Below, in pieces: positions 4,787 through 40,525 of a DNA stretch of 40,525 nt. The notes beneath the pieces were generated by a model. It had not been told where the DNA came from. It did no database searches and was given only the letters and a program-made list of their open reading frames with translations. Source of the stretch: a virus. The position numbers were made by a program, and so were the translations under genes. The stretch lies in IMG/VR virus record IMGVR_UViG_3300042892_003290, positions 1 to 40,525 of that record, one strand, 5' to 3'. Position 1 is the first letter of the stretch. Each line of letters starts with the position of its first letter.

Positions 4787-5463
4787 TTAATATTTTTATC
4801 GGGTACGACCCGCGAGAAGCTATTGCATTTCATGTGTGTACTAACAGTATTATTAGACATTCTAGTAAACCCGTAGCTATAACTCCGCTTGCTTTAAAGA
4901 ACATGCAAGACTATGAAGAAAAACACACCGACGGTAGTAATCAATTTATCTATAGTCGTTTCCTTGTTCCACATCTTATGGAATATAAAGGATGGGCAAT
5001 CTTTATGGACGGCGATATGCTGTTACGTGATGACATCGAAAAACTATGGGCGTTGAGAGATGAGTCAAAGGCGGTTATGGTTGTCAAGCACGACTATAAA
5101 ACTAAGATGACAGAAAAGTATCTAGGGTCAAAGAACGAAGACTATCCTAGAAAAAATTGGTCAAGCGTCATCCTCTGGAACTGCGAACACGCTGCAAATA
5201 AAGTAGTTACTACTGAGTTTATAGAGAATGCCACTGGCGCACAGTTACATAGATTTACATGGTTAACCGATGATCTAATTGGAGAACTTCCTGCTGAATG
5301 GAATTGGTTGGATGTAGAATATGATCGTAACCCGTTAGCAAAATTAGTTCATTATACGTTAGGTACTCCATGTTTTCATGAGTTCGCTGACCAAGGAGAT
5401 TTTGCAAACGAATGGCATAGAGAAAGGCTCTATGTTGATTACTGTTTACAGCGCGGCTTATGA
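4783..5463 (+). CDS. GT-A glycosyltransferase (GT8-like)
   Basis: 226 aa. The N-terminus INIFIGYDPREAIAFHV and the catalytic region WAIFMDGDMLLRDDI, with a DxD metal/nucleotide-sugar site, are typical of small phage and bacterial GT8-like enzymes. It would transfer a sugar from a nucleotide donor in the cytoplasm. It overlaps both neighbours by 4 bases, so it is translated together with the cytidylyltransferase fusion and the first GT-B-like paralog. The acceptor is unknown. Confidence 0.85.
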   Translation: MINIFIGYDPREAIAFHVCTNSIIRHSSKPVAITPLALKNMQDYEEKHTDGSNQFIYSRFLVPHLMEYKGWAIFMDGDMLLRDDIEKLWALRDESKAVMVVKHDYKTKMTEKYLGSKNEDYPRKNWSSVILWNCEHAANKVVTTEFIENATGAQLHRFTWLTDDLIGELPAEWNWLDVEYDRNPLAKLVHYTLGTPCFHEFADQGDFANEWHRERLYVDYCLQRGL

Positions 5464-6257: not shown

Positions 6258-6260
6258 AAT

Positions 6261-7367
6261 ATGAAAGCACTAATAAGCGACAAAGAGATAGCAAATTTTT
6301 TAGTGACACTGATTACTAAAAGTTTCAGTGACGCTGATATAGAAACTGCGTTATCTCTAGAATACAATGAGCAAGAACTAGGTAATGAAATTTTAAATGT
6401 CATTGAAAAACGAGATTCTGGAAAACTACACAAGTTCAAAGATAAGATAAAAGGAAAACTGCACTCAGCAGTAAGCAACGATCTACGAGCACATGTTAAT
6501 AAACTTCAAAATTTTTTAGACGGTACCCGCAAGAGAAAAGAATATGTTATTAGAAAAAATATTACAGCGATTATAGAAACCTTAGGTGCTGACAATATTC
6601 TGCAATTATACAAAGACAGCAATGAACAAGGATTTGTTAAATCAACAGCATTGCACATTGACTCGAATACAGAGTTAGTTAGGCGGTCAGTTTATCAAGA
6701 ATCCGCCGAAACATGCTTTTTTAGAAACATGGACGGTAATGAACAAATGTTACTGTCGAGAATGGGAGGAGGGCATCCATTCTGGTTTATTGATACAGGG
6801 TATACAAACTTTTTACACGGAAAACAGAAAGTATGGCATCGATTGGTTAGAAATAACTTGCACCATTCGGCAATGTTTAATCCCCCAGTAGATAGGTTGG
6901 GAATTTTTGAATCGTTTCCACAATCTTGGAGAGAAGGCGGTGATAAAATTTTAATTATAGAACCCGGCGGATTTTCTGCAAGAACGTTTGGTATTGATAT
7001 CGCCCAGTGGAAAAAAGAAGTCGAAGTTGAAATTAGAAAATATACTGACAAAAAAATAGTTATTAGAGAAAAACTAAGTAAGAAAGTTAGACAAAATCTA
7101 TATAAAGAATTGTGCGACGATGATTACTATTGTGTTATAAACATCAATTCAAATGCTGCTACAGAAGCAGTGTGGGCTGGCGTACCTATAATCACACTTG
7201 ATAAACATATTACTAATTCAATTAGTCGATCAAAGATTTCGGAAATAAATGATCTTGCAAGACCTCATCTTGCCAACTGGTTGTGTACGCTCAGTTACAG
7301 CCAATTTACCTATGATGAATTAATAGACGGTACTGCATCAACAATAGTAAAAAAATATCATGTCTAA
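6261..7367 (+). CDS. GT-B-like paralog B with helical N-extension
   Basis: 368 aa. From residue ~165 it aligns with paralog A: WFIDTGYTNFLHG, VWHRLVRNNLHH, ILIIEPGG, WKKEVEVEIRKYTDKKIVIR, INSNAATEAVWAGVPIITL, and LANWLCTLSYSQFTYDELI. Residues 1-~160 are an extra Lys/Glu-rich helical region with no match I recognise; it may be a coiled-coil or membrane-proximal adaptor. The gene is visibly A+T-richer than the replication genes. Confidence 0.75.
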   Translation: MKALISDKEIANFLVTLITKSFSDADIETALSLEYNEQELGNEILNVIEKRDSGKLHKFKDKIKGKLHSAVSNDLRAHVNKLQNFLDGTRKRKEYVIRKNITAIIETLGADNILQLYKDSNEQGFVKSTALHIDSNTELVRRSVYQESAETCFFRNMDGNEQMLLSRMGGGHPFWFIDTGYTNFLHGKQKVWHRLVRNNLHHSAMFNPPVDRLGIFESFPQSWREGGDKILIIEPGGFSARTFGIDIAQWKKEVEVEIRKYTDKKIVIREKLSKKVRQNLYKELCDDDYYCVININSNAATEAVWAGVPIITLDKHITNSISRSKISEINDLARPHLANWLCTLSYSQFTYDELIDGTASTIVKKYHV

Positions 7368-8304
7368 ATATACTGCTGTTGCATACTTTAGCGGAATCCC
7401 CCCTAATAATACTAATCAAGAAAAACCGTTAATTTTAACTAATTTCTGCCAAGGTGTTACGGCATCGGGCGACACTGGAATTTTACATAAGGGCATGGAT
7501 GCGATTCCCTGCGATGTAGCATTAATTCAGGGATTTGTACACGAGCACGGCAAAGATGCACCTCATCTTAGATTAAGAAGAGCGGCCATAGATCTACAAA
7601 AAACAAATAACAAACGATCGTTAATCGTCGACAGCAGCTTGTTCCTTTATACAAATAAAGCAAATCCTTTACACTATCTTAGATATAGTTTTGATGGAGT
7701 ATTCCCAACAACAGGTTTTTATTTCGATACCGAGACTGATCCTAGCCGCTGGCAAAAAATCAGTAATAATTTAAATTTAAGTTTAAAAGACTATCGATCT
7801 CAAGGTAACCATATATTGATTTGCCTACAGCGAAATGGCGGGTGGAGTATGGCAGGCCTCGACGTTCAAGATTGGGCTATACAGGTTGTTAACACATTAA
7901 GACAATACACAGACCGTCCTATTGTTATTCGAGCTCACCCCGGCGATAAAGCAGCACGTGATTATCTCGATCCTAGAAGCCCTAAATGTAAAATAAAATT
8001 TTCTAAAGCAGTTAGGCTCAGTACTAATGTAGACTTAGTAGATGATCTTAAAAATTGTTGGGCAGCAGTTAATTATAATTCTAGTCCCGTTGTAGGAGCG
8101 GCAATAGAGGGTGTTCCTATCTTTGTTATGGATCCACTCAATAGTCAATGTGCAGAAATTGCCAACACTGATCTAGCGAAAATTGAAACACCAAACATGC
8201 CGGATAGACAGCCATGGGTTGAAAGAATCAGCATGTTTCACTGGAATTTTCAAGAACTGGTTAGTGGAGAGTGCTGGCAGCACATACGTAAGTTTATTAA
8301 ATAA
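7360..8304 (+). CDS. GT-B-like paralog C
   Basis: 314 aa, overlapping paralog B by 8 bases. It keeps the family core: HILICLQRNGGWSM, the helix WAIQVVNTLRQYTDRPIVIR, followed by AHPGDKAARDYLD, then NYNSSPVVGAAIEGVPIFVM and the tail ETPNMPDRQPWVERISMFHW. The AHPGDK segment is the clearest active-site-like motif of the five copies, because His-Pro at this place is usual in capsule and teichoic-type GT-B enzymes. The N-terminal part differs from A and B. Confidence 0.75.
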   Translation: MSKYTAVAYFSGIPPNNTNQEKPLILTNFCQGVTASGDTGILHKGMDAIPCDVALIQGFVHEHGKDAPHLRLRRAAIDLQKTNNKRSLIVDSSLFLYTNKANPLHYLRYSFDGVFPTTGFYFDTETDPSRWQKISNNLNLSLKDYRSQGNHILICLQRNGGWSMAGLDVQDWAIQVVNTLRQYTDRPIVIRAHPGDKAARDYLDPRSPKCKIKFSKAVRLSTNVDLVDDLKNCWAAVNYNSSPVVGAAIEGVPIFVMDPLNSQCAEIANTDLAKIETPNMPDRQPWVERISMFHWNFQELVSGECWQHIRKFIK

Positions 8305-8308
8305 CTTA

Positions 8309-9121
8309 ATGTACAAATTTCAAATAACACACCAAGACTTTGTTGAAAATCCATGGTTTCAAAATTGGCAAAACACAAAGGTTGTCGATACCTGGGAACA
8401 TGTGTCATCAGACATTCCGGTAATCACAGCGTCAAATTTATTACGATATGAGGTAAGACGCTGGCTTAAAAATTCTCAACCTGCAATCTATATAGGACGA
8501 GGGTATCTTGGTAACCATATAGGCAAAGGTCGATGGTGGTGGCGGTATAGTGTGAACGGATGGGCTAATACACAATTGATGCCAATACCATATTCTAGAT
8601 GGGGTTTAACCGAACTTCCCAGACATCCTTGGAAGGTTAAAACAATTAAAAATATTTTATTGGCTCCTAGTAAAATGACAGGTAAGGTGTGGGAGTCTAA
8701 TCAAAACGGCAGCTGGACTGATCAACTGATGGATAAATTTCCAGGAGCAACAGTTAGGATTAGACCAAAAGCAAGAAAATCTGCATTACGATGGGCAACG
8801 ATCTGGGATGATCTAGATTGGGCAGATCTTGTAATTTCTCAATCATCTGCAATCACCTGCGAAGCATTTTGGTATGGAAAAAAAGTAATAAGTCTAGAAC
8901 CATGCCCGACATGGGCAGCTGGAAGAACTTTCTTAGATAATTGGCAAGATCCTACAGAACCAGCAGGGAGAGATCAATGGCATGAACATCTAGCATGGAG
9001 TCAATTTTCTAGAACTGAATGGGAAACTGGAGAAGCCCTAAATCTTATAGAAAAATATCTAGGGCCTGTGGTAGATTACAAAAACTACTACAATTACAAC
9101 TTATTAGAAAATTTTAATTAA
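8309..9121 (+). CDS. GT-B-like paralog D
   Basis: 270 aa from the ATG at 8309; an earlier in-frame start at 8183 would overlap paralog C by more than 100 bases and is rejected. It shares YIGRGYLGNHIGKGRWWWR with the N-part of A, ILLAPSKMTGKVW, a VRIRPKARKS arm, SQSSAITCEAFWYGKKVISL in place of the GVP loop, and the tail AGRDQWHEHLAWSQFSRTEW. The GVP loop is changed to GKKVI, so donor specificity may differ. Its stop overlaps the stop of the convergent minus-strand gene. Confidence 0.75.
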   Translation: MYKFQITHQDFVENPWFQNWQNTKVVDTWEHVSSDIPVITASNLLRYEVRRWLKNSQPAIYIGRGYLGNHIGKGRWWWRYSVNGWANTQLMPIPYSRWGLTELPRHPWKVKTIKNILLAPSKMTGKVWESNQNGSWTDQLMDKFPGATVRIRPKARKSALRWATIWDDLDWADLVISQSSAITCEAFWYGKKVISLEPCPTWAAGRTFLDNWQDPTEPAGRDQWHEHLAWSQFSRTEWETGEALNLIEKYLGPVVDYKNYYNYNLLENFN

Positions 9122-9932
9122 ATTTTTTCATTTCAGCAATCATTGTATCGTAGTCAACAATATCGAAATTAAATTCATTACGAGTATCTATTAAAATTTT
9201 ATTAACTGGCTTAGGACCTTGTGTTCTAATTATTGTTTTGTTGAAAGCATACACTTCATTTATTTTGCACAGTAGATCATATTTGTTAATTTTATTTTTA
9301 TTACTAACAAGATGATAAATCCCAGATATCGTAGGATCATTTATATATTTGTCAATGCATTTAGCAAGTTCTAAAGTAGTAATACCATTCCACCAGGCGT
9401 TGTCCCAACCTTGCAATTCTTGTTGAGGATTAGTCGAAATCCAATTAAACAACCCGGTGCCATTTGTTTTTATTTCCGAACCAATTATACTCATTCTAAA
9501 TGTAATATCTTTAGAATTATTAACTTCACCGTTTGATTTCGAGCTGCCGTAGGCATTCATTTCGGTGTGAATATCATTTTCGACGTACTCGCCTTTCTTT
9601 CCGTCAAACACACAATCCGTAGACAGATGTATTAGTCGAGTACTGGAATCTTTAAGATTGTATTCTAGATAATGCGGAAACCAAGAGTTAATAATTGCTG
9701 CTCTATCGGGTCTGTCAATGCTATCTTTAACCAATAACCCAATACAGTTAATAACAAAATCATAATCTGTTAACATTGTAAAAAATGAATCGTTGTGGCT
9801 AATTTTTTCAATGTCTATATTGATATTAGAATTCGATCTAGCCGAAGTAGTGACTTTATGACCTTGCTGTTTAAGATATCGAGTGATAACATGCCCGGCC
9901 ATTCCATTGGCACCAATTACTAAAACTTTCAT
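9114..9932 (-). CDS. NAD(P)-dependent sugar reductase (RmlD/FnlB-like SDR)
   Basis: 272 aa extended SDR. The N-terminal nucleotide-binding motif is VIGANGMAGHV; active-site parts are LSTDCVFDG and YGSSK (Y-x-x-x-K). The sequence resembles reductases that reduce the 4-keto intermediate of dTDP-L-rhamnose, or of UDP-L-FucNAc/QuiNAc synthesis. Its direct partner upstream (4-base overlap) is a CapE/FnlA-like dehydratase acting on UDP-GlcNAc, so the UDP-6-deoxy-HexNAc branch is the better guess. The product should feed the island's glycosyltransferases. Confidence 0.8.
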   Translation of the reverse strand: MKVLVIGANGMAGHVITRYLKQQGHKVTTSARSNSNINIDIEKISHNDSFFTMLTDYDFVINCIGLLVKDSIDRPDRAAIINSWFPHYLEYNLKDSSTRLIHLSTDCVFDGKKGEYVENDIHTEMNAYGSSKSNGEVNNSKDITFRMSIIGSEIKTNGTGLFNWISTNPQQELQGWDNAWWNGITTLELAKCIDKYINDPTISGIYHLVSNKNKINKYDLLCKINEVYAFNKTIIRTQGPKPVNKILIDTRNEFNFDIVDYDTMIAEMKKFN

Positions 9933-10909
9933 ATAAACTTACCTTTCTTAAGCATTTCTTTAATTTCTTGCTTATTCATAATCTTAGTTACAGACGAAAA
10001 TTCGTTGTAAGGAAATGGAGTATGATCTTGATAACGAGTGGCCAATGCCTGATTATACCCAGCCGGTAACGTTAAGAAATAGTTGTTGTCGTAACAGAAT
10101 GACAACTGCGATTCATGATGTGAAATTAACATCTCGTCTAACTTTTCACCTGGTCGCATACCTGTTTCTTTAACTTCAACTACTCCGTATTCGTCCATTA
10201 ATACTTCTGCAAGGTCTTTAATATAACATGCAGGCATGTTCATTACAAATGTTTCCCCGCCTATACTGTCAATGCTTGCTTTGAATAACAACAGGATAGC
10301 TTCTTCTAATGTTAAAAAGAAGCGTGTCATTTTCACGTCCGTGATTGTGATAGGTCCGCCTGACTTGATCTGTTCAATAAAGAACGGAATAACAGAACCG
10401 CTAGATCCCATTACGTTGCCGCCGCGAATACAAACAAACTTTGTGTAGTCGCTTAGATCATTGGCTTGAACAATAATCTTTTCGCCTACTGCTTTGGTCA
10501 TTCCGTACAGATTAATCGGTTCTACAGCTTTATCTGATGAAACATCAATGACTTTCTTTACACGATTTTCAATGGCGGCATTGACTATGTTAGTAGTCCC
10601 GTTGACATTTGTTTTAATTGTTTCTTGAACATTCTCTTCACACACCGGAACATGTTTTAATGCGGCAAGGTGAAAAATATAATCAACATTCTTTGTGGCG
10701 ATTCTAACAGCTTCATAATCTCGAATGTCACCGATGATGAATTTAAGTTTAGAATTATTAAACTTTCGTTTCATTAACACCTGCTGTAACTCGCCTCTAG
10801 AAAAACATATAATTTCTTTTACATTATATTTTTCTAATAGCATTGCAATTAATGTCTGCCCCCATGAGCCAGTAGCACCACTAACAAAGATTCTAGTACC
10901 GTTAAACAT
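9929..10909 (-). CDS. UDP-GlcNAc 4,6-dehydratase-type SDR (CapE/FnlA/WbjB-like)
   Basis: 326 aa. Motifs: VSGATGSWGQ (NAD binding), FHLAALKHVPVCE, DVSSDKAVEP, LYGMTKAVGEK (Y-x-x-x-K), RGGNVMGSSGSVIPFF and ETGMRPGEKLDEMLIS. These mark the polysaccharide-biosynthesis dehydratase family that converts UDP-GlcNAc to a 4-keto-6-deoxy sugar, often with 5-epimerisation. It sits between a methyltransferase and the RmlD-like reductase in one minus-strand operon. The 2-epimerase (WecB-like) needed for finished UDP-L-FucNAc or QuiNAc is not in this window. Confidence 0.88.
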   Translation of the reverse strand: MFNGTRIFVSGATGSWGQTLIAMLLEKYNVKEIICFSRGELQQVLMKRKFNNSKLKFIIGDIRDYEAVRIATKNVDYIFHLAALKHVPVCEENVQETIKTNVNGTTNIVNAAIENRVKKVIDVSSDKAVEPINLYGMTKAVGEKIIVQANDLSDYTKFVCIRGGNVMGSSGSVIPFFIEQIKSGGPITITDVKMTRFFLTLEEAILLLFKASIDSIGGETFVMNMPACYIKDLAEVLMDEYGVVEVKETGMRPGEKLDEMLISHHESQLSFCYDNNYFLTLPAGYNQALATRYQDHTPFPYNEFSSVTKIMNKQEIKEMLKKGKFI

Positions 10910-11462
10910 CTTGACTCCTTAACATGTTGATTATTTCATCATCTGAATATAATTTTTTGGTTTTTATAAATTCCATAAATTCAGCATATGATACAGATTT
11001 ATATGATTCTGCTGGATTAATTTTAGTGGCCGGAAGTTTGATCAATGTAAATCCAAAATTAGTGTCCATTGGATATATTTCAAATGATGTTTCCTGTAGC
11101 ATGTAATACAAGACCTTAAAAGAGTCTGAACATCGACTAGACTGGACATATTTTCTAGAAGGTGGAATCATATCATGCAGTAGAATCCATTTGGTAGCAT
11201 GGTCTATTGAATTGTTAAAATCTCGTACTACATAGTCGTAATCATGATTCGCATCAATGAAGATGATATCAAATTTTTCTTCAGCTGGCAAAGAATTAAA
11301 ATATTCATCAGTTGTTCCGGTATACATCGCCTTGCCATTCATATCCACTGAGAATTTATTTTTAGCCTTGATCGAATTAAAATTAACATTGTCATTAACT
11401 CCTAATTCTAAGTAAGAATATTCTTCAATCTTGTGTAGATGGTTGATAATAATACTACTCAT
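10902..11462 (-). CDS. SAM-dependent methyltransferase (Methyltransf_24-like)
   Basis: 186 aa. YSYLELGVNDNVNF stands in for motif I, and DIIFIDANHDYDYVVRDF plus WILLHDMIPP match the class I methyltransferases found in sugar and polysaccharide clusters. It overlaps the dehydratase gene by 8 bases. The probable role is methyl capping of a glycan; no substrate can be read from sequence. Confidence 0.78.
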   Translation of the reverse strand: MSSIIINHLHKIEEYSYLELGVNDNVNFNSIKAKNKFSVDMNGKAMYTGTTDEYFNSLPAEEKFDIIFIDANHDYDYVVRDFNNSIDHATKWILLHDMIPPSRKYVQSSRCSDSFKVLYYMLQETSFEIYPMDTNFGFTLIKLPATKINPAESYKSVSYAEFMEFIKTKKLYSDDEIINMLRSQDV

Positions 11463-11471
11463 ATGTGTTCC

Positions 11472-12113
11472 TTATATATATTTTCTTGACTTTCGAGGAG
11501 TCGCTACTGTGCTATCAGCTGCTAAAAATGTAGTATCGATTGCTGGGCCTAGATCATAGTCATAGTGTTCTTCGGTCAATTTTCTTTTTACAAAATCTTT
11601 AGAAGCCTTTGCTTCTGGATTATATTGCGGATTATCTGTGTCAATCCATTTCTGCAAAAAATGTATTCTTGATTGATTGTAATTCCATGACGATCTACTT
11701 TTAGAATATGCAACTTCTTCAGTTATATACATGGCAATGTTAGCTTCCTGCAAGCGAATATAAAAATCATCATCTTCGTACCCGCCACCAACGAATCGCT
11801 CATCCATCATTCCGATTTGCCTCATCAATTGTTTTTTAAAACCAAAAAATCCAAATCTATACAGTCCAACTAATCCGTACCCTTGGTTGATGAGAGACAC
11901 TGTTTTCTGCACATCAGCGGCGGTTGGCAAAACCTTATCAGACATTATGATTACAATTTCAGTGTCTGCTTTTGCTGTACACTCATTTACTAATTTTGAA
12001 AAAGAAGGATATCCGGTGCCGTCGAAATAATTAATTTTTTCAGGAGTTATGTTCTGTTTAATGGGATCAAACAGATGAGGTTTATTTGAAATCACATAAC
12101 AACTATATGACAT
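11472..12113 (-). CDS. GT-A glycosyltransferase with GGYEDDD motif
   Basis: 213 aa from the ATG at 12113, preceded by a GGGGGA SD; the in-frame codon at 12143 lies inside the upstream gene. VIIMSDKVLPTAAD fits a donor-binding region, and the GGYEDDDFYIRL motif is typical of GT2/GT7-like galactosyltransferase C-terminal domains, where the acidic run binds acceptor or acts as base. It is part of the minus-strand transferase operon. Confidence 0.78.
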   Translation of the reverse strand: MSYSCYVISNKPHLFDPIKQNITPEKINYFDGTGYPSFSKLVNECTAKADTEIVIIMSDKVLPTAADVQKTVSLINQGYGLVGLYRFGFFGFKKQLMRQIGMMDERFVGGGYEDDDFYIRLQEANIAMYITEEVAYSKSRSSWNYNQSRIHFLQKWIDTDNPQYNPEAKASKDFVKRKLTEEHYDYDLGPAIDTTFLAADSTVATPRKSRKYI

Positions 12114-12795
12114 TAAAATTCCCCCAATAACTTGTCTTTGCATTTGTTAAACTTTTTTTGCCATCCTTTTTAGTCAACGCCATACCCATTACGTAGTTAT
12201 GTACTTGAATTATGACATGATGTTGATTGATAGCATTGTCGGCAGGGAGATATGTTTTAGCATATGTGTTTAATAATTTTTCAGCGGCTGCTGGCTTGAT
12301 TGCGTATCCACAACAACCTGGCATCGAGCTCTGATAGTAATCAGCTGCCGACGCCTCACCTTCGGGATTATCGTAGTAATGACGATACCTGTCAGTTTTT
12401 TTAGGGTGACCTAACGCCAACACCAGCACATCCTTCCATTCAACCGGTACATAAGGTCTCACCAGAACAATGTCGTCTTCCCAAATAACAATAGGTTCGT
12501 TGAGCTCCACACACTTTTGCCAAAGACGATAATGACTATAAAAGCATCCTTGGACACCCGGACTCCAATGTGAATCTGGATCCATAGTCTTAATGACACC
12601 ATCGGCAGGAGGACCTTTAATGCCCCAAGGATGAATAGTTCTTCCCTCGTCCTTCATCATTTTTGTGGCATCATTCCCATAGGTGCCTTCAAATAATTCT
12701 ACTTCCTCGCCGAACTCAACTAATTGATTTTTTAACTTAGTAGCGGTATCAAGTGATGCTTGAATCTTCGATAAACAAATAATAAAATTTTTCAT
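12103..12795 (-). CDS. GT25-like glycosyltransferase
   Basis: 230 aa from the ATG at 12795, overlapping the upstream stop as ATGA. FIICLSKI near the start, GVQGCFYSHYRLWQKCVE and PIVIWEDDIVLVRPY are the marks of the GT25 family (LPS core/collagen-type transferases), and GCCGYAIKPAAAEKLL occupies the usual late position. It is likely a UDP-sugar transferase acting on LPS-like or protein-bound glycan. Confidence 0.82.
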   Translation of the reverse strand: MKNFIICLSKIQASLDTATKLKNQLVEFGEEVELFEGTYGNDATKMMKDEGRTIHPWGIKGPPADGVIKTMDPDSHWSPGVQGCFYSHYRLWQKCVELNEPIVIWEDDIVLVRPYVPVEWKDVLVLALGHPKKTDRYRHYYDNPEGEASAADYYQSSMPGCCGYAIKPAAAEKLLNTYAKTYLPADNAINQHHVIIQVHNYVMGMALTKKDGKKSLTNAKTSYWGNFNVI

Positions 12796-13625
12796 TGCCA
12801 ATACGCTTCTGTTCTTTGAACTTTTAGATCTTCAGGTTTACTACGACCTAATTTCTTTCTACCACCTTTGAGATGATCTAACCATGCGCCCCATTGACTA
12901 TTAATTAATGGGTGTCCTTCGCCTGACGTCATTCCCGGTGCTGGGCGTAGATCATGCAAGTGTGCTGCCCAATCTAGTTGTCGCATCTGCGGAAATTTTA
13001 CTCGTACCGCATCGAACACAAAACTGTCATGCCACTCAGCTAACTGAAAAATTCCTTGCTCTGCTTGATCATAGAATCTTTGGAATTCTTTGAGAAAAAG
13101 TTGAATGTTAGGTGATCGCAGATTCATAGCATACAGGCCGCATTCCGAATATTTGCCTTTTCTGCCAAGATAGCATAGTTCAGAATCTGCAGGAATCATT
13201 CTATAAAGATCTTTCATAGTGATAGGACTGTGACAAATAGTATCTGCATCCATCCACACTAAAATATCTGCATCTGTTTCCTTGGCACAATCAAAGATTG
13301 CATAAACTTTGTGAGCAAATCTCACAGCATGCCATTTAAATCCCTTACCTGAATCTTTTCTTAGAGATCTCACCGGATCGGCTGAAACATCGCCGTTGGC
13401 CTTAGGCACATCTTTCCATTGATTTTTAAAAGTCATCAATTCCGGAATCTCTTCTAGTCGTTTTAGAGTAACATGGCTGTGGTCACGAATGGCAGGATTA
13501 CATTGTTCTGGATAGATGTGTAAAATTACTTCATGAGGCCAGTTTGCACAGAATGTATCAATCATACGTTGTGCATATTTTTGTAAACCTTCTTCGTGGA
13601 AGGTGGTAACAACTGCTATTTTCAT
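12792..13625 (-). CDS. GT-A glycosyltransferase with DAD motif
   Basis: 277 aa. The N-terminus KIAVVTTFHEEGLQKYA and the metal site ILVWMDADTICHSPI define a GT-A fold of the type found in many phage and cyanophage genomes. Later CGLYAMNLRSPNIQLFL and EWHDSFVFD fit acceptor and divalent-ion regions. It overlaps both neighbours by 4 bases. Confidence 0.8.
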   Translation of the reverse strand: MKIAVVTTFHEEGLQKYAQRMIDTFCANWPHEVILHIYPEQCNPAIRDHSHVTLKRLEEIPELMTFKNQWKDVPKANGDVSADPVRSLRKDSGKGFKWHAVRFAHKVYAIFDCAKETDADILVWMDADTICHSPITMKDLYRMIPADSELCYLGRKGKYSECGLYAMNLRSPNIQLFLKEFQRFYDQAEQGIFQLAEWHDSFVFDAVRVKFPQMRQLDWAAHLHDLRPAPGMTSGEGHPLINSQWGAWLDHLKGGRKKLGRSKPEDLKVQRTEAYWQ

Positions 13626-14020
13626 CTATAATGTTCCCATACGTGAAATATTCCCTGAAGACTGGTACAGGCCCATCCAGAGTCGTATAAAATTTTTACT
13701 TTTTCATTTTCTACACGATCGCCGCCTTCGACAAACAGTTTTGCATTGTGTTTACGCCATATAACTTCTACTTTATCAAGATGATCCAACTGGTCAATGT
13801 CAACAAAGATTGATGACATATCCTGCAAGTGATCTAATTTAACAAAGTTTTCTTTATACACGAGATTTTTTGCCTTAATATCCGGCGGCACTTCGCTGAC
13901 CACAAATACTGTGTCATAAATTGCCAAGACTTGGTCTAAAATACCAAAAGCCGAACCTAACACCAGAGCATGCGTGTTGTTACGTGACAGTTTCATCAGT
14001 CTTTTTTGAAATTTATTCAT
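13622..14020 (-). CDS. Small Rossmann-like phage protein
   Basis: 132 aa from the ATG at 14020; a GTG at 14035 in frame would place the start inside the promoter box. ALVLGSAFGILDQVL, DTVFVVSE and SIFVDIDQLD read as alternating strands and helices of a small Rossmann fold, possibly a degenerate methyltransferase or sugar-nucleotide-binding fold. It is the first gene of the minus-strand operon, with a 4-base overlap to the next transferase. The function is unknown. Confidence 0.72.
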   Translation of the reverse strand: MNKFQKRLMKLSRNNTHALVLGSAFGILDQVLAIYDTVFVVSEVPPDIKAKNLVYKENFVKLDHLQDMSSIFVDIDQLDHLDKVEVIWRKHNAKLFVEGGDRVENEKVKILYDSGWACTSLQGIFHVWEHYR

Positions 14021-14025
14021 AATCC

Positions 14026-14063
14026 ATAAATACACAACAGTATTAACTACGTAGATTATTTAT
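14026..14063. promoter_or_regulatory. Divergent late-type promoter region
   Basis: Two ATAAATA late boxes face opposite ways. The plus-strand box at 14026-14032 points to the gene at 14071; the minus-strand box at 14057-14063 points to the operon starting at 14020. The spacer is A/T-rich. Confidence 0.5.
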
Positions 14064-14070
14064 TAAAATT

Positions 14071-14895
14071 ATGCGCTTCAGATTATATCGCGAATATGGT
14101 GCTTTGAACAGTCCGCCGGTGTTTGACGCCCTAGAACACGGCCTAAAACAAATGGGTCATGAGATTGTCAATGACCAAGAAGATGTGGCTGTGATTTGGT
14201 CTGTGCTTTGGGCTGGCCGAATGAGATCAAATAAAATGATCTATGACCGATGCCAACAGCAAGGCAAACCTGTAATGATTATAGAAGTCGGAAATCTCAA
14301 ACGTGGGGAGACTTGGAGATTAAGTCTCAATCATATCAATAATCTTGGTAGTTTCGGTAATGAAAAAAATCTAGATCATTCACGTCCCCAACAGTTAGGC
14401 ATGAAATTACAGCCAGTTTCGGAAAAACGTCGTGGCGAAATATTAATTGCCTGCCAGCATCAAGAAAGTCTGCAGTGGCAGGGGATGCCTGAGATGAAAA
14501 ACTGGGTAGCAGACACTATTGAAAAAATAAAACAGAATACTCATAGACGAATACGTGTGAGATATCACCCTCGTTCGGCATTTCCGTTCAAGCAGTCTGG
14601 TGTAGTAGTAGAACGGCCCGTGCTGGTTCCGGGCAGTTATGACGATTTTGATATTTTTTACAATTATCATTGTGTAATCAATCACAACAGTGGCCCAGCT
14701 GTTCAAGCAGCTATCAGCGGTGTGCCTGTACTCTGTGATCAATCCAGCCTTGCAGCTGACCTTAGTGTTAAATGGTCAGAATTAGACAGTCCGAGTCTGC
14801 CTGACAGAACTGAGTGGTTCGTGAAACTTTGCCATACTGAGTGGACTGTGGAAGAAATACGCCAAGGCATACCAATCACAAGATTATTCGGTTGA
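14071..14895 (+). CDS. GT-B-like paralog E
   Basis: 274 aa, fifth member of the family at 5.5-9.1 kb. The core is ILIACQHQESLQW, the helix WVADTIEKIKQNTHRRIRVR, then YHPRSAFPF, INHNSGPAVQAAISGVPVL, and the tail SPSLPDRTEWFVKLCHTEW. YHPR corresponds to AHPG in paralog C. It is separated from its relatives by the minus-strand operon, which suggests an inversion or separate insertion. The stop codon TGA lies inside the -35 box of the next promoter (GGT-TGA-CA). Confidence 0.78.
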   Translation: MRFRLYREYGALNSPPVFDALEHGLKQMGHEIVNDQEDVAVIWSVLWAGRMRSNKMIYDRCQQQGKPVMIIEVGNLKRGETWRLSLNHINNLGSFGNEKNLDHSRPQQLGMKLQPVSEKRRGEILIACQHQESLQWQGMPEMKNWVADTIEKIKQNTHRRIRVRYHPRSAFPFKQSGVVVERPVLVPGSYDDFDIFYNYHCVINHNSGPAVQAAISGVPVLCDQSSLAADLSVKWSELDSPSLPDRTEWFVKLCHTEWTVEEIRQGIPITRLFG

Positions 14896-24829: not shown

Positions 24830-24938
24830 AAGAATAATAGATTTTCTGCTCTATCCTTGGAACAGATATCAAGAACACCGAAGATTCAAACGTAAGTTGA
24901 AAGAACTACGTAAACGTGATCCGTTTATCTACAAATGA
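24822..24938 (+). CDS. Tiny basic membrane-associated protein
   Basis: 38 aa. MFKRIIDFLLYPWNRYQEHR is followed by a Lys/Arg-rich helix ending in KRDPFIYK. An amphipathic or membrane-dipping N-terminus with a basic tail. It overlaps the primase by 8 bases and the carbamoyltransferase by 4 (ATGA), so translational coupling makes it a real gene. Similar short proteins occur beside primase in other T4-like phages as far as I recall. Confidence 0.78.
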   Translation: MFKRIIDFLLYPWNRYQEHRRFKRKLKELRKRDPFIYK

Positions 24939-26404
24939 TTACTTGGGGAATCTCTGCTGCCAGCCATAACGCTGCCCTGGCCGTGTTTCGAGATAATCAA
25001 TTGGTATTTGCCAGCGAAAGCGAAAGATTCAGCGGAGTAAAAAACGATCCTGACCTCAATCAGAAGTTAGTAGATCATGCAAGAACATTCGGCGAGCCTG
25101 ATCGTGTATGCTGGTACGAAAAGCCATGGAGGAAAACTCTAAGGCAGTTGACAGCAGGTCAGGGCTGGCATGATAATAATGTTAAGAGATATCTCAAGAA
25201 GTATAATATTACAGCACCCGTTCGCACTGTAGATCATCATCTCAGCCATGCGGCTGCAGGATATTTCACCAGTGAATTTGACAATGCCTGTGTACTGGTA
25301 ATTGATGCCATCGGTGAATTTGAAACAATGACCCAATGGGAAGCTGTAGGCGACAAGTTAACCAAACAGCGCAGTGTAGAATATCCCAACAGTCTCGGCC
25401 TGTGGTATTCTGCAATGACACAGCGAATTGGGCTCAAACCCAATGAAGAAGAATATATTCTGATGGGCATGGCAGCATTAGGCAATCCTAATAAATTAAC
25501 CAGAGATCTGTTAACTGATTTTGTTGCATTGCCTAATGACGATTATCAATTGCCTTTTAGAATAAAAAACAATCTACATCGTGGCTGTGAGTCTTGGCGT
25601 CAAGATCTCAATACCATGAATGACCGATTTAATATCGCAGCTGCCACTCAGGCAGTTTATGAATTGGCTTTTGAAAGAATACTGCAAACAGCCATGTCTA
25701 CTACCAACAGTCGCAATCTTGTGCTGATGGGAGGGTGTGCATTGAACTGTGCCGCTAATCACATAGCCTTTAAGTATTTTGATCGTGTATGGATCATGCC
25801 TGCGCCCGGAGACAGCGGCAGCAGTATAGGTGCAGTCTTAGCAGATCGTAAACAACATACAACTTGGCCTGGACCATATCTAGGTTACGATATGGGGTAT
25901 ACCGCCACTAACAGAGAAATTGTTGAATATATCACAACCCATAAGATCTGCGGAGTGGCACGTGGTCGTGCAGAATTTGGACCTAGAGCATTAGGCAATA
26001 GAAGTCTCGTAGCAGATCCTCGAGGCCCACAAGTCAAGGATCGAGTTAACATGATCAAAGGCAGAGAAAATTTTAGACCATTCGCTCCTGCAATCCTAGA
26101 AGAACATGCAGATCGATATTTTGAAATGCCCACAGAAAAAACTCCTTACATGCAGTTCACTGCCAAATGTCGCAAACCTGATTCATACCCTGCTATCATA
26201 CATGCAGATGGCACCAGCAGAGTTCAAACCGTAGGCAAGAACGATAATCCAGAATTTAGAGCCTTGCTAGAAACTTGGTATGATCTCACCGGCTGTCCTA
26301 TGCTGTTGAATACCAGTCTTAACATCAAAGGCAAGCCCATGGTCAATGATCACGCAGATCGACTGAATTGGCAGGCCAAGCATGGTTTACCTGTGTTTAA
26401 TTAG
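24935..26404 (+). CDS. Carbamoyltransferase (NodU/CmcH/TobZ family)
   Basis: 489 aa. The N-terminal ASKHA/Kae1-like domain has GISAASHNAALAVF, VDHHLSHAAAGYF (metal His) and MGGCALNCAANHI. The C-terminal YrdC-like domain has GRAEFGPRALGNRS, the carbamoyl-adenylate signature, and LLNTSLNIKGKPMVND. Both active domains are present, so it should carry carbamoyl from carbamoyl phosphate to an O-acceptor through carbamoyl-AMP. The acceptor could be a phage sugar or modified nucleotide. It is somewhat short for the family (~540-570 aa). Confidence 0.93.
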   Translation: MITWGISAASHNAALAVFRDNQLVFASESERFSGVKNDPDLNQKLVDHARTFGEPDRVCWYEKPWRKTLRQLTAGQGWHDNNVKRYLKKYNITAPVRTVDHHLSHAAAGYFTSEFDNACVLVIDAIGEFETMTQWEAVGDKLTKQRSVEYPNSLGLWYSAMTQRIGLKPNEEEYILMGMAALGNPNKLTRDLLTDFVALPNDDYQLPFRIKNNLHRGCESWRQDLNTMNDRFNIAAATQAVYELAFERILQTAMSTTNSRNLVLMGGCALNCAANHIAFKYFDRVWIMPAPGDSGSSIGAVLADRKQHTTWPGPYLGYDMGYTATNREIVEYITTHKICGVARGRAEFGPRALGNRSLVADPRGPQVKDRVNMIKGRENFRPFAPAILEEHADRYFEMPTEKTPYMQFTAKCRKPDSYPAIIHADGTSRVQTVGKNDNPEFRALLETWYDLTGCPMLLNTSLNIKGKPMVNDHADRLNWQAKHGLPVFN

Positions 26405-33367: not shown

Positions 33368-33396
33368 ATTATACGATCGTTTGGCTACTTTGTCAA
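33368..33396 (-). promoter_or_regulatory. Sigma-70 promoter P2
   Basis: GGTTGACA, 17-base spacing, TATAAT on the minus strand. The leader AAACACATACACAC plus SD is almost the same as at P3. Confidence 0.9.
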
Positions 33397-33398
33397 CC

Positions 33399-33416
33399 AA
33401 AAGCCCTAGGGCTTTT
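33399..33416 (-). terminator. Palindromic terminator fused to P2
   Basis: AAAAGCCCTAGGGCTTTT is a perfect 18-base palindrome. Its T-run continues as TTTTGGTTGACA, the -35 of P2. It ends the transcript of the 33421 gene. Confidence 0.8.
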
Positions 33417-33420
33417 AGGG

Positions 33421-33774
33421 TTAATCCAACCTGCTGCCCGCATAGATATCTTCGATGCCCAGCTCTTGTTTCATCACTGCTGCGTAGGCCACAGCGCCGT
33501 GATCTGCTGCATCCACGCTCTGACCGTGCCACCAGCTGTTCCAAAGTTGCAGGCCGCCGGTGTAACTCTTGCGGAATCCCACGGCACTCAGGGCCTTGCC
33601 CAGCTTGGAGTTAGAACGTACCTTGTAGACGTTGACCCAAGCAAAGCCACATGCGCCCCCGTCTCTACCATTGAAATGCTTGTTGGAGAAAGCCTGTGCT
33701 GCTGCTCGGGCAGCTGCCATGGCCTTGTCGTGTGCTTGTTGAACTTGTGCTGCGTCGATAGTTGCTGTAGTCAT
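33421..33774 (-). CDS. Conserved-looking phage protein
   Basis: 117 aa with SD AAAGGAG. Helical Ala-rich N-terminus (AHDKAMAAARAAAQAF), then a compact Gly/Trp-rich domain (GACGFAWVNVYKVR, GLQLWNSWWHGQSVDAADHG). I recall similar proteins in several large phages, unnamed. Single-gene unit between P3 and a terminator. Confidence 0.82.
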   Translation of the reverse strand: MTTATIDAAQVQQAHDKAMAAARAAAQAFSNKHFNGRDGGACGFAWVNVYKVRSNSKLGKALSAVGFRKSYTGGLQLWNSWWHGQSVDAADHGAVAYAAVMKQELGIEDIYAGSRLD

Positions 33775-33803
33775 TTCATGCTCCTTTGTGTGTGTATGTG
33801 TTT

Positions 33804-33832
33804 ATTATACGATCAAGCTGCCAATTTGTCAA
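33804..33832 (-). promoter_or_regulatory. Sigma-70 promoter P3
   Basis: GGTTGACAAATTGG extended -35, 17-base spacing, TATAAT. The TGA of the upstream gene is inside TTGACA. Confidence 0.9.
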
Positions 33833-34014
33833 CCAAAATAGTTTTCAACGGAACCCTCAATGCCCTCTTCAAAGGTGTCGCTGTAAAGTCCCTCAATGTC
33901 CTGCTCAAAGAACTCAGTCAGTTGTTTCTTAGAGGGGGTCTTGCCTGTGAGTTCCTTGGCGTACTCTTTGACTGCTTTGATAGCGGATTTAGGTACAGTG
34001 ATAGTGATTTCCAT
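33829..34014 (-). CDS. Small protein, possible ribbon-helix-helix fold
   Basis: 61 aa from the ATG at 34014 with SD AAGGAG. MEITITVPKSAIKAVKEYAK has the strand-helix start of small DNA-binding or antitoxin-like ribbon-helix-helix proteins; the rest is acidic (EFFEQDIEGLYSDTFEEGIE). Ends in YFG, with the stop inside the P3 -35 box. Confidence 0.75.
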   Translation of the reverse strand: MEITITVPKSAIKAVKEYAKELTGKTPSKKQLTEFFEQDIEGLYSDTFEEGIEGSVENYFG

Positions 34015-34040
34015 AGTGTGCTCCTTGTTGCGATGTGTCA

Positions 34041-34069
34041 ATTATACGGTCAAGCTGCCAATTTGTCAA
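34041..34069 (-). promoter_or_regulatory. Sigma-70 promoter P4
   Basis: GGTTGACAAATTGG, 17-base spacing, TATAAT. It shares a near-identical ~30-base block with P3 (one base different), and the upstream gene reads through the -35 box. Confidence 0.9.
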
Positions 34070-34190
34070 CCAAAATCAACTGTGGCTTTCCTACAACACG
34101 GCCCCCATTGATGTTAGCATACATCTCAGCCACTGCTCTCACGTAGAACTGCTGTTGGGTGCCATTGGGATATATCACTGTGTAGGCCAT
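34050..34190 (-). CDS. Small protein ending through promoter P4
   Basis: 46 aa. AYTVIYPNGTQQQFYVRAVA and INGGRVVGKPQ read as a small beta hairpin protein. Its last residues ILVDKLAA are encoded by the P4 -35 region. The ATG overlaps the upstream stop (TAATG). Confidence 0.68.
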   Translation of the reverse strand: MAYTVIYPNGTQQQFYVRAVAEMYANINGGRVVGKPQLILVDKLAA

Positions 34191-34393
34191 TACGCTCGCT
34201 CCAGGACACGCATGAGTTCGTTGTGCAGGTAATCAACCTCTGATTGATCCACGTAGAAATCAGTGCGGGGATCGTAGTAGGCTCCCTCTCGGACATCGTA
34301 GTAGAGTGGGCGGCCACCTATGTTGAACGGTCCCTCTAGGCCCTTGCGTGGAGTGTATCCCTGGAGCACATCGTTGACGATTCTGTAACCCAT
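34190..34393 (-). CDS. Small Tyr-rich protein
   Basis: 67 aa, one base after the upstream gene. YRIVNDVLQGYTPRKGLEGP, YYDVREGAYYDPRTDFYVD and a C-terminal helix. Unknown function. Confidence 0.72.
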   Translation of the reverse strand: MGYRIVNDVLQGYTPRKGLEGPFNIGGRPLYYDVREGAYYDPRTDFYVDQSEVDYLHNELMRVLERA

Positions 34394-34394
34394 G

Positions 34395-34508
34395 TTATGC
34401 TCCAGCTATGGCGATCAGTACACCTGCAGTGATCATCAATGTGGCCTGGATCAAGCCTGTGATCCAACCAATGTAAACGACAGCTACGATTCCGATCAGC
34501 TTCAACAT
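34395..34508 (-). CDS. Single-pass/re-entrant membrane micro-protein
   Basis: 37 aa, hydrophobic throughout: KLIGIVAVVYIGWITGLIQA, then TLMITAGVLIAIAGA. SD AAAGGAGCG before the ATG and promoter P5 upstream make it a real early gene. First of a three-gene operon. Confidence 0.72.
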   Translation of the reverse strand: MLKLIGIVAVVYIGWITGLIQATLMITAGVLIAIAGA

Positions 34509-34535
34509 GGTTCGCTCCTTTGTTGCTAAGTGTTA

Positions 34536-34564
34536 ATTATAACGCCGTCTTACCAAATTGTCAA
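34536..34564 (-). promoter_or_regulatory. Sigma-70 promoter P5
   Basis: GGTTGACAATTTGG, 17-base spacing, TATAAT. The TGA of the 34561 gene lies inside the -35. Confidence 0.9.
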
Positions 34565-34797
34565 CCAATTTCTGTGTTGCAAAACTGCCACATCTTCAGT
34601 GCATCGCCCTTGAGCCCCATCAACACTCCCTCGTAGTCTCTGTAGGAACAGCAGGCCCACGTGCTTTGAGGACGGTAAACCCAACCATCGTGTTCCCGCT
34701 CGGTGTTGTGTTGAGTAACAATGCGGCGAGCAGTTGCTGCCTTCTTGTAATACTTCTCCATCCACCCGCTCTTGGTGTCGTATACTACCCATCCCAT
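34561..34797 (-). CDS. Small protein downstream of the structured RNA
   Basis: 78 aa. WVVYDTKSGWMEKYYKKAAT, ARRIVTQHN, DGWVYRPQSTWACCSYRDYE. It looks like a small folded alpha/beta domain. SD AGGAG lies 6 bases before the ATG. The nearest promoter is P6, so its mRNA would carry a ~250-nt structured leader. Confidence 0.75.
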   Translation of the reverse strand: MGWVVYDTKSGWMEKYYKKAATARRIVTQHNTEREHDGWVYRPQSTWACCSYRDYEGVLMGLKGDALKMWQFCNTEIG

Positions 34798-34804
34798 TGC
34801 ATTC

Positions 34805-35046
34805 TCCTGCTGCTGTTGATGTTAGACGGGGATGTTTGATAGAAGAAACAGTTTTGAACCTGCCCTACCGTGCCGTCCACGGACTTGTCTATCAACCACA
34901 TTACAGGCCAACTTGATCCGGCGTGCTCGTCCTCCCAGAGGCTCTGGGTGATCTGCTTTCGTGTATTCCAAGTAGAGCCTAGCCGTCACTAGGAATAGTT
35001 CTCTACTTGGGTACCTACCGGAGTTGGTAACCCCTAATCTCTAACT
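34805..35046 (-). ncRNA. Structured RNA or long structured leader
   Basis: About 240 bases with no gene, transcribed from P6. On the minus strand I see a perfect 10-bp stem (35001-35010 with 34968-34977) topped by a perfect 5-bp stem CCTAG/CTAGG; a 6-bp stem CCCAGA/TCTGGG (34934-34948); CCGTG/CACGG (34868-34882); an 8-bp long-range pair TTGATAGA/TCTATCAA (34836-34843 with 34888-34895) enclosing it; and a bulged stem at 35009-35033. It is visibly G+C-richer than its neighbours. It matches no RNA class I know and could be a stand-alone sRNA or a riboswitch-like leader. Confidence 0.7.
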
Positions 35047-35052
35047 GTCTCT

Positions 35053-35081
35053 ATTGTAACACCAGTTGCTCAAACTGTCAA
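35053..35081 (-). promoter_or_regulatory. Sigma-70 promoter P6 (structured RNA)
   Basis: GGTTGACA, 17-base spacing, TACAAT. The TGA of the 35078 gene is inside the -35. Confidence 0.85.
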
Positions 35082-35308
35082 CCAAACGCTCGATATAACC
35101 CTACAAAGCCTATGGCTAATGCAATCACGTTTACCGTAAACTGCGGCAAGTTGCGAACACGGACAGTCCATGCTAGGAATGCCACTGTGCCCACAAATGC
35201 TGCGATGATGTTCCAGGGATATGCTTCGGGCCCCATTGCGTTCAACACATGCATGGCGATGATGGCCACTGCTCCGGTCCACTGTAGAATGTCATTTGTT
35301 TTGTTCAT
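35078..35308 (-). CDS. Membrane protein with leaderless start
   Basis: 76 aa from the ATG at 35308; the longer ORF from 35347 would begin upstream of the promoter. Two to three hydrophobic segments: LQWTGAVAIIAMHVLNAM, IIAAFVGTVAFLAWTV, VIALAIGFVGLYRAF. TATAAT then 6 bases then ATG, no SD. The stop overlaps the P6 -35. Confidence 0.82.
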   Translation of the reverse strand: MNKTNDILQWTGAVAIIAMHVLNAMGPEAYPWNIIAAFVGTVAFLAWTVRVRNLPQFTVNVIALAIGFVGLYRAFG

Positions 35309-35314
35309 GTGTGT

Positions 35315-35343
35315 ATTATAACACTGATGAGCCGATCTGTCAA
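35315..35343 (-). promoter_or_regulatory. Sigma-70 promoter P7, leaderless type
   Basis: GGTTGACAGATCGG, 17-base spacing, TATAAT, 6 bases (ACACAC) to the ATG. Confidence 0.88.
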
Positions 35344-35345
35344 CC

Positions 35346-35370
35346 AAAATGACTAAAGCCCTTTCGGGCT
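35346..35370 (-). terminator. Terminator fused to P7
   Basis: AGCCC-GAAA-GGGCT with a GNRA loop, followed by TTAGTCATTTT, whose T-run continues into GGTTGACA of P7. Confidence 0.8.
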
Positions 35371-35379
35371 GTAGGGTTA

Positions 35380-35529
35380 TTACAGTTGTTCGATTTGAGC
35401 GGCTGCAAAATCTATTATATACACGCTGTGGTTGGCTTGTACAGGGTAAGCAGCGCAGGCAACAGAAGCTGCGGCAAATGTGTAGTAGAACTGGATTGCT
35501 TGTGTAGCTGTGTTAACGATTGCGTACAT
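35380..35529 (-). CDS. Small Ala-rich protein
   Basis: 49 aa with AAAGG SD. AIQFYYTFAAASVACAAYPV is a hydrophobic, possibly membrane-seeking segment; the end is HSVYIIDFAAAQIEQL. Single-gene unit between P8 and a terminator. Confidence 0.72.
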   Translation of the reverse strand: MYAIVNTATQAIQFYYTFAAASVACAAYPVQANHSVYIIDFAAAQIEQL

Positions 35530-35555
35530 GGAGTGCCTTTTGTTGCTAAGTGTTA

Positions 35556-35584
35556 ATTATAGCGCACTTTGTCCAAAATGTCAA
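35556..35584 (-). promoter_or_regulatory. Sigma-70 promoter P8
   Basis: GGTTGACATTTTGG, 17-base spacing, TATAAT. The leader TAACACTTAGCAACAAA is shared with P5. The TGA of the 35581 gene lies inside the -35. Confidence 0.9.
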
Positions 35585-35979
35585 CCAGTTTGGGTGTTGT
35601 TTTTCTGCAACAGATCGGCGCCGTCTTCTTTGGCAACCACCACCTTACAGGGCGTAAGGTTTTGATTCAATCTTTCTATCAATCCCTGGGAATCCTGTCC
35701 CTGGCCTAAGAACTGGTTATCACTCTTGCGATACGCGAAGATCTCTGTGCCTACCTGCTCAAGTTTGACATCAACCACGGTGCTATCCGTGGCTCCCTCG
35801 TCATCATCCAGCTGCCATTCCTTGGATTGGATCTTGATCATAGCCCGGAGCAGGTCCTCTTCCGTGACCTTCAAGGCCTTGAGCAGCTGACGGAATCCAT
35901 CAAGATGCACCTGTCTTGATGCCCGCCATCCTATGAAGATCCCTACGGCTGCTGCGATGATTAGTTCTATCATGTCCAT
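35581..35979 (-). CDS. Membrane-anchored phage protein, leaderless
   Basis: 132 aa. One N-terminal transmembrane helix (MIELIIAAAVGIFIGW), then a soluble domain with FRQLLKALKVTEEDLLRAMI and EIFAYRKSDNQFLGQGQDSQ, then GLIERLNQNL. I recall similar proteins with this layout in other T4-like phages, unnamed. TATAAT lies 6 bases before the ATG at 35979; a second ATG at 35973 is possible. The stop overlaps the P8 -35. Confidence 0.82.
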   Translation of the reverse strand: MDMIELIIAAAVGIFIGWRASRQVHLDGFRQLLKALKVTEEDLLRAMIKIQSKEWQLDDDEGATDSTVVDVKLEQVGTEIFAYRKSDNQFLGQGQDSQGLIERLNQNLTPCKVVVAKEDGADLLQKNNTQTG

Positions 35980-35985
35980 ATTTAT

Positions 35986-36014
35986 ATTATACTGCGGTTT
36001 GACTCAAATGTCAA
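35986..36014 (-). promoter_or_regulatory. Sigma-70 promoter P9, leaderless type
   Basis: GGTTGACA, 17-base spacing, TATAAT, then ATAAAT and ATG. The string also contains TATAAATA, so a late box overlaps the early promoter. Confidence 0.85.
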
Positions 36015-39545: not shown

Positions 39546-40525
39546 TCAAGCCGTCTCTGTCTCCGTCTCATAGATCACAGTCTGTCCAAATGGTGCATTC
39601 GCAGAGGTGTTGCCTTTGACGATAAAGATTGTATCGCAGTAGTCCTCATCACCCCAACTGCCACATGGGTAGCCGTCTGTGAACATAATGAACTTCTTGG
39701 GTTGGATCTGATTCTCTTCCATGAAGGTCCAGTTGACTTCGAAGTCTGTGCCACCGCCACCTTCTGGAACATATTCCTCTAGCTCATGAGCTTCGTCATG
39801 TGTTATAGTCTTCCAGTTGTAGATGTCTGTGTCAAAGCACCACAGGTTGATGCGGTAGTCTTCGTACTGGTCCATGATGCCTTTGATCTCGCTCAAGAAC
39901 GCAGTTGCATCTTCTTCACCAATGCTTCCACTCATGTCAATAGCAATGGCCACGTCAATGGTAGTTGCTTCTTTCATGCCCGGAAGGATTGCGCCTGAGT
40001 GCATACTCTTGCGATTCACACGCTGAAAGGAGTAGTCGTTGCGAACAATGCTTTGGATCTCTTGTTGCACCAACTGGCGCCAATCGATCTTAGGCTCAGT
40101 CATAGACTTGATCATACGCATGATGCCTGCGGGGGTCTTGCCTGCACCAGCGGCCGCGGCACTTTGGATCATGGCTTCTTTGATCTCTTGACGCAGAGCT
40201 TCTGCTTCTTCTTTGCTGAGACTAGGCTTGCCCTTGCCGTCTTTGGTCTTGTCGCCTTCTGAGCCAACGCCTTCTTCTTCTTTGATGTGCTCGTCCAAGA
40301 GTTCACCAAGTTGTGCCAGCAGTTGCGACATAGGGATCTTCTCTGCTTTTTCGTAGAGCTCGTCGTAGATCTCTTCCCAAGCCATGCCACGATACTTTGG
40401 ATCATAGCAGATCTTAACTTCGGTGATCTTCTCACCAATGCGTTCGTCTACAAGGATCTGGTTGACAGCGTAGTCTTGTGCGATGTTGCAGAGCATACGA
40501 TCACGGCTACCAGCACGACCAAAGT
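39546..40525 (-). CDS. DUF2201-type VWA protein, 5' end outside window
   Basis: 326 codons visible; the frame is open past the right edge (RDRMLCNIAQDYAVNQIL region precedes and covers the first ATG at 40496), so the start is missing. The C-terminal VWA domain has a MIDAS motif in VAIAIDMSGSIGEED and later FIMFTDGYPCG. The N-terminal region matches the metallopeptidase-like part of DUF2201, with a charged helical linker between. Such proteins work with MoxR-type AAA ATPases as chaperone-like pairs; a MoxR gene is expected to the right of the window. Early or middle expression is likely. Confidence 0.88.
   Translation of the reverse strand, partial: FGRAGSRDRMLCNIAQDYAVNQILVDERIGEKITEVKICYDPKYRGMAWEEIYDELYEKAEKIPMSQLLAQLGELLDEHIKEEEGVGSEGDKTKDGKGKPSLSKEEAEALRQEIKEAMIQSAAAAGAGKTPAGIMRMIKSMTEPKIDWRQLVQQEIQSIVRNDYSFQRVNRKSMHSGAILPGMKEATTIDVAIAIDMSGSIGEEDATAFLSEIKGIMDQYEDYRINLWCFDTDIYNWKTITHDEAHELEEYVPEGGGGTDFEVNWTFMEENQIQPKKFIMFTDGYPCGSWGDEDYCDTIFIVKGNTSANAPFGQTVIYETETETA

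Follow-up and report, generated by a model that had tools for sequence, protein, structure and literature searches.

The stretch of about 220 bases at 35046-34821 on the minus strand of the window (the whole DNA analysed, a virus record of 40,525 bases) is very probably a phage gene whose product, a structured RNA of about 220 nt, acts in trans. Where the gene was found, there is one copy per record. At least 95 distinct cores with the same fold, the window's included, were detected in uncultivated phages by pattern and covariance-model searches. Comparison of these sequences showed the fold, its preservation on this strand, the lack of a fixed downstream gene and two genomic settings. A preliminary description had proposed an unknown structured RNA with its own promoter. 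Both parts stand, the promoter as a prediction, and of the three guesses made there on the role, the stand-alone phage RNA agrees best with the results.

In the window the RNA is preceded on the minus strand by a predicted sigma-70-type promoter with 11 of 12 consensus matches and TG before the -10 box (Table 1). The core starts with GGTTACC 20 nt after the end of the -10 box, and from this spacing the RNA would start near 35046, at P1. The stretch terminates in CCCCGTCTAAC at 34821. Downstream follow AGGAG (34808-34804) and a 78-aa gene with its ATG at 34797, as described before. The earlier characterization as G+C-richer holds mainly against the whole window (0.51 vs 0.42), but hardly against the surrounding 4 kb (0.49). 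The stretch had also been called gene-free, and no large ORF was found over it in the window. A 55-aa frame with GTG start (34822-34989) overlaps the RNA. It is unlikely to be a gene, because the core lengths of the 95 relatives are spread over all three frames (21, 47 and 27) and stops occur in every frame of the core in 81 of the 95; one frame without stop was present in 14. On the same strand, at 33368-36014, seven perfect TTGACA-17-TATAAT promoters lie within 4 kb, by eye mostly preceding small ORFs.

Table 1. Features of the RNA locus in the window
Feature	Position	Strand	Remarks
Sigma-70-type promoter (predicted)	35053..35081	-	TTGACA 35081-35076, 17 nt, TACAAT 35058-35053
Structured RNA gene	34821..35046	-	putative start; 3' end set where P1 ends
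P1, 5' strand	35031..35045	-	GTTAGA 35045-35040 and GGGG 35034-35031; inner GGGG/CCCC covaries
P1, 3' strand	34821..34831	-	CCCC 34831-34828 and TCTAAC 34826-34821
P2, 5' strand	35018..35027	-	CCAAC, CCGG; pairs with 34921-34908; covaries across types
P2, 3' strand	34908..34921	-	CCGG, GTTGG; covariation in A5
P3 arm	34963..35014	-	GTA/TAC; P3a 10 bp (35010-35001/34977-34968); P3b 5 bp (34993-34989/34982-34978); loop TGACGG; covariation
P4 arm	34925..34956	-	weakly supported outside type 1
Conserved GUAAUG junction	34899..34904	-	invariance partly by selection (in later search pattern)
3' domain	34833..34898	-	P5 34898-34889/34842-34833; P6 34882-34868, loop GACGG; P7 34863-34848
78-aa gene, downstream of RNA	34564..34797	-	not tied to the RNA in relatives

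In the fold, P1 is the closing helix; P2, P3a/P3b and P4 make up the 5' domain, and P5, P6 and P7 the 3' domain. The stems claimed in the preliminary description are all present: P3a stacked with P3b, the 8-bp pairing TTGATAGA/TCTATCAA, which is P5, as well as P6 and P7. The outer 6 bp of P1 are found in the window and are replaced in L026 and L032. P1 is long in most relatives. With its own partner strand a mean of -28.0 kcal/mol (n=91) was calculated, vs -16.5 kcal/mol (n=898) with swapped strands; both means still include L192, which was rejected by model R1. The P1 of the window is itself weak (-15.7 kcal/mol, about equal to the swapped mean). Pairing of P4 is also weak: in type 1 the inner part is paired to 59% and the 2-bp base to 100%, and across types the base reaches 50%. 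Of the 13 type 1 rows, 11 have a P4 with GAAA or GCAA as cap. The arm of the window is 11 nt longer than in 11 of these 13 rows, and the hairpin CCCAGAGCCTCTGGG (34934-34948) accompanies this 11-base insertion, which is found only in the window and L026 among them. In a few sequences the P3b and P6 loops seemed by eye to contact each other, but this was inconsistent and was rejected. A possible resemblance of GGUUACCU to the complement of the 3' region of 16S rRNA was set aside; these letters lie in P1/P2.

Folded as a single sequence, the RNA of the window gave a modest result (-79.8 kcal/mol vs a shuffle mean of -70.0 kcal/mol, z -2.02; 5 of 200 shuffles did equally well). For the fold it is the relatives that decide. 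Covariation had been named in the preliminary description as a check, and it was strong in the alignments A2 and A5 and in a mutual-information scan. P2, P3, P5, P6 and, in most relatives, the long P1 are maintained by compensatory changes. A2 contains 13 full-length type 1 sequences and was made, like A1, by plain MAFFT. In A2 94.1% of the cells were paired, vs at most 41% in slid versions. Changes on both sides were counted in 46 cells vs 13.3 in shuffles, and 20 of 54 pairs showed a double change vs 7.2 in shuffles; none of 500 shuffles reached either value. A5 comprises 93 distinct rows of the 5' domain; A3-A5 were fitted to the model, so that their pair counts and the A5 mutual-information scan lean towards its structure. 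For A5, 83.6% paired cells (slid controls 28-47%) and 639 double-changed cells (216.9 in shuffles, 639 reached by 0 of 500) were obtained. The number of pairs with double change and the number of pair types were weak measures, reached by 53 and 19 of 500 shuffles, respectively. In the mutual-information scan 8 of the 10 top column pairs were proposed pairs. A single pair of P2 was seen in A5 as GC (28), UG (25), UA (21) and CG (18). G-U pairs on the minus strand, in 25, 18 and 10 rows at three pairs of A5, set the strand of the RNA. For the 3' domain, 30 distinct type 2a sequences, selected by a pattern fixing their ends, showed that P5 and P6 vary largely by compensation, and the P6 loop was GACGU or GACGG in 26 of the 30. 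A chance fold in an ordinary spacer would agree with the modest z value of the window; against the covariation in A2 and A5, the A5 column scan and model matches with E of at most 1.4e-12 in four records that had not entered the model, its probability is negligible.

These records belong to eight that were fetched solely for a relative of the 78-aa gene; four of them gave a model match (E 1.4e-12 to 4.1e-17). The relatives were collected with a pattern for the P3 arm, which led to seven stretches with the RNA, and with wider patterns combined with the covariance model R1, which gave the at least 95 cores. GGTTACC, TAGG and GTAATG were part of the search patterns, therefore their invariance is partly due to selection. 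In one batch of 70 loci, 68 had an R1 match at E < 1e-8, L117 had none and a T4 stretch scored 15.5 bits; in another batch R1 matched 99 of 100 loci. L192, which passed the pattern and not R1, was removed (96 to 95 cores, 35 to 34 copies without tRNAs). L117 was dropped for want of an R1 match, and L059, L061 and L065 were dropped as pattern matches without the motif. L029, L046 and L066 are cut by contig ends and were left out of the 95; L077 and L125 were confirmed as members. One match each was present in 46 of 50 virus records, of which 42 had been chosen for carrying the pattern; in the other four, which may be fragments, no match was detected. In L027, L028, L030 and L031 similarity is limited to window positions 35033-34830. 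In L005 the upstream DNA of the window is kept, but the RNA (type 2) has diverged strongly and the downstream gene is a different one.

Two settings of the RNA were distinguished. For 42 of 76 distinct well-flanked copies tRNAs were found within 700 nt, frequently as long clusters; in the stretch of L185, 23 tRNA matches share the strand of the RNA. No tRNAs were found near the window copy. A promoter with its -10 box ending 20-30 bases before the core was found in 21 of the 34 copies without near tRNAs, compared to 1 of 42 copies of the tRNA group and 94 of 3500 random positions. This placement supports the own promoter of the preliminary description. In 10 of the 34 copies the promoter was located 114-136 bases before the core, with the element RNA-B (see below) in between in all ten. 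This distant class is not specific, because a match 105-145 nt before the core was also seen in 14 of the 42 tRNA-group copies. Only three of the 34 (L037, L182, L203) had neither promoter class. In L027, L036, L071 and L073 a hairpin (e.g. TATAGTG..CACTATA) was noticed by eye just upstream of the RNA, among tRNAs. Its 3' arm is the 5' strand of P1, thus hairpin and P1 are mutually exclusive. The hairpin is perhaps a processing signal.

The preliminary description had also considered a sensing leader for the small gene, meaning that the RNA would control the 78-aa gene in cis, as a riboswitch or a switch of translation. The window indeed has the RNA between the promoter and the AGGAG of this gene with no promoter-like site between, and the two were found within about 1 kb in 6 of 24 loci. 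In L002, L004, L005, L017 and L018 the RNA lies upstream of the gene with other genes between, in L024 downstream. Hence, both share a neighbourhood and not a fixed order. The arrangement of the window was not found elsewhere: the 420 bases before the 78-aa gene held other genes and in none of the 24 IMG/VR loci the RNA, although one contig begins close to the gene and may show less than the full length. L026 and L032 are 98.5% identical to the window over 273 bases including the promoter and then diverge into unrelated sequence, where the next gene follows about 240 bases further, by eye behind another promoter-like site. A downstream ORF was found in 23 of 31 copies; five pairs were alike and 13 had no relative. 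Some of the ORFs inside tRNA clusters are probably spurious. Among the 23, the 78-aa gene occurred only in the window's copy. A conserved association with one downstream gene family, as expected for a riboswitch or leader, was thus not found, and 42 of the 76 well-flanked copies lie near tRNAs. By these loci a general role as cis leader is ruled out; for the 78-aa gene of the window such a role is very improbable.

The second check named in the preliminary description was an Rfam scan. The window gave no Rfam 15 match above the gathering cut-off. At E<=5 the sole match in the region was Atu_Ti3 (E 0.47), inside the 78-aa gene and on the other strand. In 12 loci of relatives tRNAs and weak matches were obtained at E<=1, none of them over the RNA, and in 12 further loci at gathering only tRNAs. 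No tRNA or tmRNA was detected in the window by ARAGORN or Rfam. A blastn search of the INPHARED isolate phages with the window and two relatives resulted only in matches of 19 and 31 bases (E 8). In nine isolates including T4, R1 with stricter filters gave none at E<=10; the best matches of model R3, 14.9 bits (E 1.08) in Atu_ph07 and 16.7 bits (E 0.27) in Vibrio phage 2.275.O, were taken as chance. One strict pattern scan of bacterial genome contigs gave two matches, both without the rest of the motif. No published description of the RNA family was found in the literature searched; its novelty rests on this and on Rfam 15.

Known phage RNAs are comparable in setting. RNA C and RNA D of T4 (species 1 and 2) are two stable RNAs of small size and unknown function that belong to the phage tRNA cluster without being tRNAs, as given in the T4 record annotation and parts of PMC9697503. 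The RNA described here is also small; tRNAs lie within 700 nt of 42 of its 76 well-flanked copies and not near that of the window. Homology to RNA C/D was rejected: one R1 match of 15.5 bits in T4 (79,320-79,438, E 0.09) lies away from rnaC/rnaD, and neither R1 with stricter filters nor R3 gave a match in T4. GOLLD and ROOL, in the parts of PMC12286853 dealing with them, are structured phage RNAs of unknown function often located near tRNA islands, and many GOLLD members exceed 800 nt. Their tRNA setting is alike, whereas our RNA has about 220 nt and no Rfam match to either. The wcaG, manA and glnA RNAs are likewise structured RNAs in genomes of T4-like phages, in their case cyanophages; they are classed as cis-regulatory in the relevant part of PMC9964418, in contrast to the present RNA, which has no fixed downstream gene and no Rfam match. 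The best reading is that the RNA resembles T4 RNA C/D, GOLLD and ROOL in setting and is unrelated to them in sequence. Among the loosely grouped structured phage RNAs that lie near tRNAs and have no known function, it forms a new family, and it may work like one of those named. A strongly covarying family of at least 95 distinct cores, without Rfam 15 match where tested, indicates that uncultivated phages hold structured RNA genes missed by gene finders. The double setting, own promoter or tRNA cluster, offers a handle on the purpose of the non-tRNA RNAs in phage tRNA clusters, such as T4 RNA C/D, GOLLD and ROOL. Furthermore, the RNA models and the fixed architecture ease tests by expression, probing and deletion.

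The place among tRNAs, the conserved loops on fast-changing stems and the single copy suggest a partner in translation or the tRNA machinery, or a defence attacking it. For the trans-acting RNA the following course is conceivable. The predicted promoter would fire and the RNA would start near 35046 at P1; the long P1 of most relatives would delimit and protect the mature RNA; and the conserved apical loops (GACGG/GACGU), displayed on the arms of the stable RNA, would be bound by a partner belonging to the infected cell's translation or tRNA machinery. This binding is proposed tentatively, as one possibility well short of an even chance. Somewhat less probable is that the RNA counters, as a decoy or antagonist, a host defence directed at tRNAs or RNA, e.g. 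an anticodon nuclease. Such a role would account for the position among tRNA genes, and conserved apical loops on fast-changing stems are expected of a binding site; but the RNA of the window resembles no tRNA in the searches with ARAGORN and Rfam, and some copies do not lie near tRNAs. Still more doubtful is a function as ribozyme or, in the manner of ROOL and GOLLD, as an RNA-only assembly. The multi-branch fold with invariant junction letters and the tRNA-near setting known for ROOL and GOLLD from that part of PMC12286853 would suit, but the RNA is far smaller than GOLLD, has no Rfam match over it, and a column scan of the 5' domain revealed no pseudoknot.

Further candidate RNAs were noticed beside the structured RNA. 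RNA-B is a conserved element of about 95 bases between promoter and RNA. Thirteen sequences were aligned (mean column identity 69%) and 29 loci, some on the same contig, were found by nhmmer. It lies directly upstream of the RNA in L002, L004, L017, L029, L031, L034, L064, L114, L116, L139, L153, L171 and L177. RNA-B was not found in the window and gave no Rfam match in the five of these loci that were scanned. Downstream of the RNA, before the next promoter, stem-rich and apparently gene-free stretches of several kinds were observed (L037, L031, L116, L055, L121, L139, L153, L026, L187, L198). Four seeds from these stretches recur in 11, 3, 2 and 4 loci and are absent from the window. The stretches are candidates for further structured RNA genes. 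Speculatively, and with less confidence than for the loop-binding partner, the RNA could be the most widespread of a set of small structured RNA genes, at least RNA-B and several candidates, arranged head-to-tail in these uncultivated phages behind one promoter or among tRNAs. Such a set would form an RNA-based toolkit acting on the translation or tRNA apparatus of the host, of a kind not described so far.

On the plus strand the window encodes a RecA-like protein and a DnaB-like helicase; the latter reaches about 51% identity at best with helicases of large phages (e.g. PA5oct, Atu_ph07). Genes at 4783-14895 may be glycan genes by their look. Positions 4019-4786 code for a protein that combines a cytidylyltransferase-like domain with a mannose-6-phosphate isomerase C-terminal domain, and 24935-26404 for a carbamoyltransferase. 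On the minus strand, a membrane protein of the Bax inhibitor-1 family (PF01027, E 6.2e-53) was found in this phage at 29120-29818, and a protein with DUF2201 metallopeptidase-like and VWA-like domains at 39546-40496.
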